DNA of 35,431 bases from positions 1-35,431 of the forward strand of contig JAITCL010000056.1 of the NCBI GenBank assembly GCA_031283105.1, in the 5' to 3' direction. The translations under genes were made by a program, and so were the position numbers. Source of the stretch: Treponema sp. GTDB lineage: Bacteria > Spirochaetota > Spirochaetia > Treponematales > Breznakiellaceae. The first letter of the stretch is position 1, and each line of letters begins with the position of its first letter. Below, in pieces: positions 3,208 through 24,275 of this stretch. The notes under the pieces are model-generated. The model saw only the letters and a list, made by a program, of their open reading frames with translations. It did not search any database and had not been told where the DNA came from.

Positions 3208-3237
3208 TTGACACCCCCCACCCAAAAGTGCTACAAT
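3208..3237 (+). promoter_or_regulatory. Near-consensus sigma-70 promoter TTGACA-N18-TACAAT with structured leader
   Basis: TTGACA at 3208-3213 and TACAAT at 3232-3237, 18 bases apart. It points to the ATG at 3399, which has a strong ribosome site, leaving a leader of about 155 bases. The leader holds two adjacent GC hairpins, GCCCGTTGGGC (3277-3287) and GCCCGCAAGGGC (3290-3301, GCAA loop), and a weaker ATAAG/CTTAT pair near 3315-3335. No known riboswitch is recognised. The span 3131-3398 has no gene. Confidence 0.65.
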
Positions 3238-3398
3238 AACCCCATAGTCCGTTGGACATCTGTTCGAAGAACACCCGCCCGTTGGGCGCGCCCGCAAGGG
3301 CATACAAGGTTATCCATAAGGAATTCTTTCTTATAGGATACCGCCAAAAACTTCCGGCCAATCAAGTTTGAGACGCCGGACGCACAAGGAGACCCGCC

Positions 3399-3476
3399 AT
3401 GACCAGTAACCCGCACCGGCGCTTAAACAGCACACCGCAGCCCGCATTTTTTCCCCCCCCCCCCCCCCAGATGTAG
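3399..3476 (+). CDS. Short leader reading frame containing the C tract (off-phase start of the lipoprotein)
   Basis: The ATG at 3399 has an excellent ribosome site, AAGGAG at 3386-3391, 7 bases upstream. The frame reads MTSNPHRRLNSTPQPAFF, then five prolines from the C tract, then QM and a TAG at 3474-3476. With one more C in the tract (17) or two fewer (14) this frame runs on without a stop into the lipoprotein, making a 197-residue (17 C) product. In the sequence as given it ends after 25 residues. It is therefore best read as the true start of the downstream gene in an off phase, or as the result of a base-count error in the tract. Confidence 0.5.
   Translation: MTSNPHRRLNSTPQPAFFPPPPPQM
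3453..3468. repeat. Homopolymer tract of 16 C
   Basis: Sixteen consecutive C follow six T, inside the short reading frame that starts at 3399 and upstream of the lipoprotein. Tracts of this length slip during replication. Poly-G/C contingency loci are established in Treponema pallidum and other bacteria. The tract length is also the kind of position where sequencing or assembly often errs. Confidence 0.95.
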
Positions 3477-3532
3477 TCGCTAAATCACTCCAGGTCATCC
3501 AGATATTTAAGAATATTCTCATCATAGCGTTT

Positions 3533-3991
3533 TTGCCGCTGGCTATATTAAGCGGGTGCGCGGGATCTGATTCGCCGTCCGGGCCAACTAAGGTGACGGT
3601 GACGAAGGATGTGACCGTAAGTTTTCCGGCGTTTAGTGTTGCCACTAGTATAAATTTTGCACCTACATACACACCTGACGGCGGTTGGGGAGAACATTTT
3701 AATGCTTCTGATATTACGTATACCGTAACAGTAACAGGTACAGGAGTATCCAAAACTTATGATAGCGGTACCGGGTTTGTTGCAAAAATAAGCGAAGACG
3801 GGTATCCCGATGGTATATACACTTTTACACAGACTTTCACGGCAAATGGCAATACAGTAGGCAATCAGATTATTAAAGTAGAGGTGGCATTCAATTGGTT
3901 TGGGCAATTACAAAATGCTACTGGAATCCCTTTATCCCCTCAAGCTATTCCTTCTGTGACTTTGAATCTTAGCAAGACGGTAAGTAAATGA
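3533..3991 (+). CDS. Putative lipoprotein, paralogue of the one at 23772, start out of phase
   Basis: The frame gives FKNILIIAFLPLAILSGC, a basic residue, a hydrophobic stretch and an LSGC lipobox, then a secreted domain of ~145 residues. The TTG at 3533 cuts the signal peptide short, and no ATG lies in frame before the C tract, so the natural start is probably the ATG at 3399 through the tract. The mature part shares the block TVTKDVT, SFP, FSVATS, NF and a later DGIYTFTQTF with the lipoprotein at 23772-24275, so the two are paralogues of a beta-rich surface or periplasmic protein. No function is recognised. Confidence 0.6.
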   Translation: MPLAILSGCAGSDSPSGPTKVTVTKDVTVSFPAFSVATSINFAPTYTPDGGWGEHFNASDITYTVTVTGTGVSKTYDSGTGFVAKISEDGYPDGIYTFTQTFTANGNTVGNQIIKVEVAFNWFGQLQNATGIPLSPQAIPSVTLNLSKTVSK

Positions 3992-4051: not shown

Positions 4052-4210
4052 CATGGCGCATAGGTCAGAGAACATGGCGCACGGGTCAGAGAACATGGCG
4101 CATGGGTCAGGGAACATGGCGCACGGGTCAGAGAACATGGCGCACGGGTCAGAGAACATGGCGCATGGGTCAGAGAACATGGCGCATGGGTCAAAGAACA
4201 TGGCGCATGG
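4052..4210 (+). repeat. 21-bp tandem repeat, seven full copies plus a partial one
   Basis: Units start at 4052, 4073, 4094, 4115, 4136, 4157, 4178 and 4199 (partial), of the form CATGGCGCAYGGGTCAGAGAA with few substitutions. Because 21 is a multiple of three, all frames stay open: one plus frame encodes MAHGSEN repeats and ends with a TAA at 4233-4235 that touches the ribosome site of the next gene; another encodes RTWRTGQ repeats. Every unit carries an ATG. Whether any of this is translated is uncertain. The block sits in the leader region of the 4248 gene. Confidence 0.9.
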
Positions 4211-4247
4211 GGCATTTGCCCTGGCCGCCAACTAAAAGGAGGAAACG

Positions 4248-4898
4248 ATGAGTCACGATTGGCTGCCGAAAAGGCGCGAAGAACAGTTGGCTATGGCGAA
4301 TAAATGGGTGACCGAGCTGCCCAACCACAAGGGGGCGTGGACGGTCACTTCCGCCGAAATCACCGAGTTGAAGGAGCTTGCCGACACCGCGCAGGAAGCG
4401 CTGAACCGGCTGGTGTCGGGCAGCGCGGTGGACGTGGCGCGGGCGCGCGAGACCTTTGCCGCTCTGGTGCGCCGCATGCGCTTTCTGCACAGCCGCAAGT
4501 TTTTCAGCCCTCCTATGGAAGACCCCGACTACGTGCGCCTGGGGCTGCGTCCGCCCGACCGCGTCAGAACCGAACATACGGTGGTGAATGAGCTTGTCGA
4601 GTTTGATTTAAGTCTGCGCGGTATCCGCGAGATTGTTGTTAATTTTTGGGTGAAGGGAACTGACCACCGCGCGAAGCCCGCCGGTTACGACGGCGCGGTG
4701 CTGGTCTGGGACACGCTGGACGCCCCGCCCGAACGCCCCACCGATCTTGCCGAACACACTATGGCGAGCCGCACTCCGCACATCATCGAGTTTGATGAAG
4801 CCGACCGCGGCAAAACCGTTTACATTGCCCTGTGCTGGCAAAATGAGCGCGGTATTCGCGGCCCGTGGAGCGAGACGCAAACGGCGGTGGTGCCGTAG
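4248..4898 (+). CDS. Conserved hypothetical protein, helical N-terminus plus Fn3-like C-terminus
   Basis: A 216-residue protein with a strong ribosome site (AAAGGAGG ending at 4242) before the ATG. The N-terminal ~100 residues (starting MSHDWLPKRREEQLAMANKW) are predicted helical and contain a conserved-looking block ALVRRMRFLHSRKFFSPP followed by a short acidic turn. The C-terminal ~100 residues look like one beta-sandwich of the fibronectin type III kind, ending in GKTVYIALCWQNERG and GPWSE. I recognise this as a family common in gut Treponema and other gut anaerobes, often found next to repeats, but no function is known to me. It has higher G+C than the accessory genes upstream. Confidence 0.75.
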   Translation: MSHDWLPKRREEQLAMANKWVTELPNHKGAWTVTSAEITELKELADTAQEALNRLVSGSAVDVARARETFAALVRRMRFLHSRKFFSPPMEDPDYVRLGLRPPDRVRTEHTVVNELVEFDLSLRGIREIVVNFWVKGTDHRAKPAGYDGAVLVWDTLDAPPERPTDLAEHTMASRTPHIIEFDEADRGKTVYIALCWQNERGIRGPWSETQTAVVP

Positions 4899-23771: not shown

Positions 23772-24275
23772 ATGAAAACCAGAAAAATCAGTTTAGTACT
23801 GGCGGTTGCATTGGCATTTGCCCTTGCATTGGGGGCGTGCGACAATGAATCTGACCCACCGGAAAATAAGCCAACTACGGTGACGGTAACTAAAGATGTG
23901 ACGGCGAGTTTTCCGGTGTTTAGCGTTGCCACAAGTGTAAATTTTACAGCTTCTTACTCTCCTTCTGTCGCTGGTGACGGATTTGAGGCTAACGACGTTA
24001 CATATACCGTATATTGTGCCGAATTAAACCGTACTTATAATAACGGAACTGGATTTACTGCAAACATAAGTGATGGGTATACTGACGGTGTATACACTTT
24101 TACACAGACCTTTAAAGCAAGTGACGGTACAACAATAAACAGTCGGGATATAAAAATATTAATAGATTTTGGTTATTTTACGCAATTACAAGATGCCAAC
24201 GGAACTCCCTTAGTTTATCAATCCATTTCTTTTATGCCTTTACATCTTAGTAAATCGGTAACTGAGGTGAATTAA
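23772..24275 (+). CDS. Putative lipoprotein, paralogue of the phase-variable one at 3533
   Basis: 167 residues from the ATG at 23772, with AAGGAG 5 bases upstream; the in-frame ATG-like codons before it lack such a site. The signal peptide is MKTRKISLVLAVALAFALAL followed by a GAC lipobox. The mature part contains TVTVTKDVTASFP, FSVATSVNF, DVTYTVY and DGVYTFTQTFKAS, matching the protein at 3533-3991 block by block. It looks like a beta-rich secreted domain. No enzyme motif is seen. Confidence 0.8.
   Translation: MKTRKISLVLAVALAFALALGACDNESDPPENKPTTVTVTKDVTASFPVFSVATSVNFTASYSPSVAGDGFEANDVTYTVYCAELNRTYNNGTGFTANISDGYTDGVYTFTQTFKASDGTTINSRDIKILIDFGYFTQLQDANGTPLVYQSISFMPLHLSKSVTEVN

Follow-up and report, generated by a model that had tools for sequence, protein, structure and literature searches.

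A run of 16 C between a start codon and a lipoprotein signal peptide suggests a phase-variable gene in a treponeme genome

Results

The locus and its two reading frames

The window, by which we mean the whole stretch of 35,431 nt that was analysed, is contig 153 of a 2.79-Mb draft MAG of an uncultured treponeme (94.6% complete, 7.1% contamination). Judged from one conserved neighbour gene, the nearest named relatives look like Treponema sp. MAGs, and their sample names point to the termite gut. One termite survey that yielded MAGs relied on HiSeq sequencing (PMC9137090). The features of the locus are collected in Table 1.

Table 1. Coordinates of the poly-C lipoprotein locus, its neighbours and its tract-free paralogue in the window.
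Feature	Position	Strand	Basis or remark
Sigma-70-type promoter-like site	3208..3237	+	TTGACA 3208, spacer 18, TACAAT 3232-3237; TG before second hexamer; 11/12 consensus
34-nt leader element common to the window and poly-C locus C7	3348..3381	+	94% identity
Shine-Dalgarno-like AAGGAGA	3386..3392	+	sequence
Start codon and 25-codon frame of the OFF phase as assembled, closed by TAG	3399..3476	+	frame reading
Lipoprotein open frame, no ATG/GTG/TTG before hydrophobic core	3410..3991	+	frame reading
16-C run, proposed slip-strand switch	3453..3468	+	in codon register with ATG 3399
Remainder of the signal peptide behind the tract, DVVAKSLQVIQIFKNILIIAFLPLAILSG; LSGC lipobox	3470..3556	+	sequence
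Mature lipoprotein, 144 aa	3557..3988	+	no match in Pfam; all-beta model of low confidence
21-bp tandem minisatellite, 7.6 copies	4052..4211	.	between lipoprotein and 216-aa gene
216-aa gene of unknown function	4248..4898	+	91% nt identity to gene behind C163 poly-C lipoprotein; duplicated cassette
Tract-free lipoprotein paralogue	23772..24275	+	ordinary start; 55% aa identity in mature part

An earlier note on this DNA had proposed a ribosome site before ATG 3399 and a promoter near 3208. Both were confirmed: a gap of 6 nt separates AAGGAGA from the start codon, and the promoter-like site, which ends 215 nt upstream of the C tract, is close to consensus. A 66-nt stretch around this site is 76% identical to a stretch upstream of the poly-C tract on contig C7. 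Translation from ATG 3399 yields MTSNPHRRLNSTPQPAFFPPPPPQM and then stops at 3474-3476, eight bases past the C run, which fills codons 19-23 and extends one base into codon 24. The first ATG, GTG or TTG in the lipoprotein frame is TTG 3533, which falls within the hydrophobic core, and the frame therefore lacks a usable start of its own; a search of the frame behind the tract for an alternative start gave none before that core. Since no start precedes the signal peptide, tract length modulo 3 would decide whether the two frames are joined, one residue class giving the full product and the others an early stop. The run of 16 C between ATG 3399 and the signal peptide is longer than expected by chance inside a reading frame. 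The assembled allele is in the OFF phase, and adding one C or removing two joins the frames, as the note had stated; its description of the 16-C count, the stop just behind it, the start-less lipoprotein frame and the LSGC lipobox also proved exact when sequence and frames were checked.

The joined product would read FKNILIIAFLPLAILSGC followed by 143 aa, a lipoprotein when signal peptide and lipobox are judged by motif. The lipobox Cys is encoded by 3557-3559, and the 53 residues ahead of it make the n-region unusually long. A Pfam search with the window lipoprotein gave no match and hence no conserved family function, and an AlphaFold2 model built from two sequences is all-beta with a pLDDT of only 57. 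Homologues were found in just 2 other species among the 59 searched. As the note had stated, no tract is present in the paralogue at 23772, whose start is ordinary. Upstream of the locus, at 2137-2595, a 152-aa ORF contains a PBECR3 domain (phage-Barnase-EndoU-ColicinE5/D-RelE like nuclease 3; Pfam E 1.7e-12). Downstream, the duplicated cassette on C163 carries a different version of the 21-bp minisatellite, and its lipoprotein is only about 31-41% identical to that of the window, as against 91% for the 216-aa gene.

Long C/G runs are rare by composition and recur in this genome

None of 100 shuffles of the window reached its number of C/G runs of at least 8. For the whole genome, base composition predicts about 0.18 C/G runs of at least 12 and about 0.001 of at least 16. 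We observed 17 C/G runs of at least 12 with a flanking base, plus some at contig ends, so that such runs are about 100 times commoner than composition predicts; at a cutoff of at least 10 the number is about 20. In 236 kb of sequence from the same genome, C/G runs end at 9, the window tract apart.

The layout of the window locus recurs at two further loci, on C70 and C81. At C70 the upstream start gives MNKISSLKAAANYSRNTPPPP and the lipoprotein frame reads YGRLVFLLLTALFLTFAGC, with a promoter-like site just upstream; at C81 the corresponding sequences are MKNSKFVINPPP and LLSLIKIIFTVTLVLFIALASC. Neither lipoprotein frame has a start of its own, and both lipoproteins are unrelated to that of the window. 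At the end of contig C163 a paralogue of the window lipoprotein stands directly behind a poly-C run, before its signal peptide, and the paralogues on C14 and C98 have poly-C upstream. These loci contradict the suggestion of the earlier note that, the paralogue at 23772 having no tract, only the copy at 3399 would switch. A G17 tract at C27:2814 meets a short lipoprotein-like frame, a case that is ambiguous because an ATG abuts the G tract. In a second class of loci (C4, C14, C32, C51, C55, C98 and C116) the tract lies upstream of a lipoprotein with its own start. Across the genome and the genus, some long C/G tracts fall within the first codons of a lipoprotein, and others precede one by up to about 250 nt.

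Six loci (C4, C7, C14, C32, C98 and C116) carry related versions of one 5' module, each ending at the tract. In these (L009, L032, L036, L015, L021 and L022, respectively) the poly-C ranges from 8 to 39, and the module precedes lipoprotein genes where the sequence continues past the poly-C. Within the module, a conserved upstream reading frame (e.g. SVN.CIPP.DRG...LK.ASLYSS) continues into poly-proline.

Several tracts of this genome lie in other settings. On C88 a 23-C tract (L020 1502-1524, tract from 6963) falls in the Pro-rich linker of a sensor histidine kinase, and an Hpt-like C-terminal part (KHQILDTLEQLETML...) is in a different frame from the kinase; this tract could be a switch for attachment of the Hpt-like part. 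On C27 and C139 (L013 931-942 and L024 1502-1514) a common leader peptide frame, MPTAGRTTLTVNSYTTNSVSFRGLKTLNSTVYTL and a relative of it, ends in the C tract, and the sequence behind the tract differs between the two. On C19 (L012 180-200) a 21-G tract occupies the coding frame just behind a secreted-protein signal peptide, MRKLVICAVFICIAALSFAGPAKES-GGG; it is flanked by inverted copies at a contig end and is possibly an assembly fold-back.

The tracts are concentrated at lipoprotein starts

A lipobox was found within 350 nt downstream of the tract, on either strand, at 9 of 19 loci in this genome, against 1.7% of background positions in the 236 kb noted above. Among 81 usable tract flanks from other species of the genus, 14 had a lipobox, against 0.6% of unselected termite-treponeme loci; the coding strand carries the C run in 13 of these 14. 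The excess is about 27-fold. The p-values (binomial, about 1e-11, for the same genome and about 2e-16 for the other species) are optimistic, because the 350-nt window and the lipobox rule were set after examples had been seen and because some of the loci are paralogues. Few tracts were present in the named neighbourhood loci.

Tract-split lipoproteins in related species and selection on the frame behind the tract

The arrangement of start, tract and start-less signal peptide in another frame is also present at two contigs of G010, a member of the same genus (C3 and C16), and at one of G002 (C74), so that at least six tract-split lipoproteins without a start of their own occur across three species. 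In G010 they belong to a paralogue family of very large lipoproteins. In five copies the tract follows ATGAATATG (TTGAATATG in one) and precedes LAGCSDLF; both flanks are conserved, and the tract lengths are 19, 15, 12, 15 and, in L211, an interrupted 8+5 C. One copy, L205, has an in-frame TTG, and another, L217, is independent of its tract because it has its own ATG behind it. Elsewhere in the giant family, both in G010 and in other species, the members lack a tract and start in the ordinary way. A search for orthologues of the C81 lipoprotein that differ in tract length gave only distant matches. Two side observations concern repeats of other kinds: in the giant lipoprotein family in G012 (L227, L228 and L230-L232) the n-region contains 7-mers of the AAAGAAC type, and in G010 (L220, L222) (TC)n lies about 130 nt upstream of lipoprotein starts.

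Behind the tract, three G010 copies remain open for about 970 codons or more. The G010 copy on C3 compared with two copies on C16 gave dN/dS values of 0.42-0.48, and 0.39 was obtained against the interrupted copy. The pair in the window falls in the same 0.42-0.48 range, where the constraint could be mainly on the tract-free copy. By these ratios the frame behind the tract is under purifying selection; the signal peptide region alone, at 33 codons, is too short for such a judgement.

Discussion

The simplest account of these features is that the window locus is, quite probably, a lipoprotein gene subject to translational phase variation by slipped-strand mispairing, and one of a set that may be called a lipoprotein phasome. 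The promoter at 3208 would give an mRNA that is translated from ATG 3399 into the 16-C tract. During replication, slipped-strand mispairing would add C to the tract or remove it. Of the three length classes, one would bring the ribosome out of the tract in the frame that encodes signal peptide and lipobox, so that the lipoprotein is made (ON); the two others would soon lead it to a stop (OFF). The earlier note had read the locus as a phase-variable surface lipoprotein. The pattern of tracts across the genome and the genus strongly favours this reading, while we infer the switching itself with its two expression states, the surface exposure of the product and the benefit to the cell.

A tract of fixed in-frame length, misassembled here, would leave the gene simply expressed. 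Short-read assemblies misjudge long homopolymers, and many tracts of the genus lie at contig ends with messy poly-C. The window tract, however, is internal to a 35-kb contig, the layout of start, tract and signal peptide recurs in unrelated genes and species, and the lengths differ among paralogues. Moreover, long G/C runs are hypermutable in other bacteria, so that a run this long could hardly stay at a fixed length. We therefore regard an assembly artefact as unlikely.

Somewhat less likely still is a decayed gene, that is, a frameshifted pseudogene whose switch is locked off. This would account for the OFF phase of the assembled frame, for the fact that all of the split copies are out of frame and for the interrupted tract of one G010 copy (L211). 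It does not sit well with 144 intact mature codons in the window and about 970 or more codons without a stop in G010, with the dN/dS values of 0.42-0.48, or with the intact promoter-like and ribosome sites.

The phases of the split copies deserve closer attention. All ten (those of the window, C70, C81 and C27, five in G010 and one in G002) are out of frame, an outcome with a chance of about 0.017, or once in some sixty, under random phases. Either these genes are OFF most of the time in the gut, then, or the upstream ATG is not the whole story; each gene may be ON in few cells, or the frame may be corrected on the RNA. The n-region of 53 residues in the joined product likewise fits the switching model poorly. 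The latter would mean constant low expression through transcriptional or ribosomal slippage on the C run rather than switching in the DNA, and ten out-of-frame copies of ten are what such correction predicts. Tract lengths nevertheless drift among paralogues, and both frame offsets occur among the split copies, so that no single slip could correct them all. We give frameshifting at the RNA level a chance as small as that of gene decay. Finally, that the tract tunes transcription or RNA behaviour in the style of T. pallidum tprL and tp0126 or Neisseria opc and porA, with translation starting behind it, is suggested by the closest treponeme precedents, which are promoter tracts (PMC7864442), and by the many tracts here upstream of a lipoprotein with its own ATG, but it is the least probable reading and a promoter-type tract was rejected for the window locus, where no ATG, GTG or TTG lies between tract and hydrophobic core and the near-consensus promoter ends far upstream.

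Translational switching at the window locus would have well-known counterparts. Homopolymer phase variation through slipped-strand mispairing is an established mechanism, and in bapC, tcfA and bvgS of Bordetella and inlA of Listeria, as in the window, a surface or regulatory gene has a run of one base within its coding frame; the length of the run determines whether a full or a truncated product is made, and frameshifted alleles appear in assemblies (PMC1891110, PMC2831843). In contrast to these systems, which belong to other phyla, the run in the window stands between the start codon and a lipoprotein signal peptide that has no start of its own, and lipoproteins dominate the present set. Closer in descent are tprE/G/J, tprL and tp0126 of T. 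pallidum, where G/C tracts at envelope-protein genes vary in vivo (PMC7864442). The earlier note had taken treponeme poly-G/C tracts as its model. The characterised tracts of T. pallidum act at the promoter (7-11 G in tprL; PMC7864442), whereas tracts here measure 11-23 or longer and that of the window, inside a reading frame, would act on translation.

In Neisseria, opc has a poly-C promoter tract and porA a poly-G tract between -35 and -10. With poly-C/G upstream of an envelope-protein gene, these may serve as a model for the tracts described above that lie upstream of a lipoprotein with its own start, although their promoter mechanism is not applicable to the window locus.

For the termite-gut treponemes as a group, the same observations raise a wider claim, to which we assign roughly even chances: a genus-wide and mostly OFF repertoire of switchable lipoproteins in a host insect without adaptive immunity. 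Such a repertoire would be built in two ways, by tracts placed between a start codon and a start-less signal peptide, and by a portable poly-C-bearing 5' module (C4, C7, C14, C32, C98 and C116) copied before unrelated lipoprotein genes. A limited search of the open-access literature gave no report linking termite, Treponema and phase variation, and the topic is absent from a 2026 paper on large termite spirochetes. The mechanism itself, SSR-mediated translational phase variation, is known, and a lipoprotein phasome in insect commensals would be the wider claim, of specialist interest.

Phase-variable surface proteins have been studied mostly in vertebrate pathogens, where the usual explanation is escape from antibodies. 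Termites, being insects, have no adaptive immunity and no antibodies. If real, a large lipoprotein phasome in treponemes of the termite gut would suggest that phages, protist grazers, attachment or rivalry drive it. There is also a practical warning, in that assemblies and annotations of such genomes lose or truncate lipoprotein genes at the tracts. If the proposal is correct, it would suggest that the poly-G systems of T. pallidum are part of a wider treponeme habit, and that these harmless gut treponemes may reshuffle their surface as some pathogens do.
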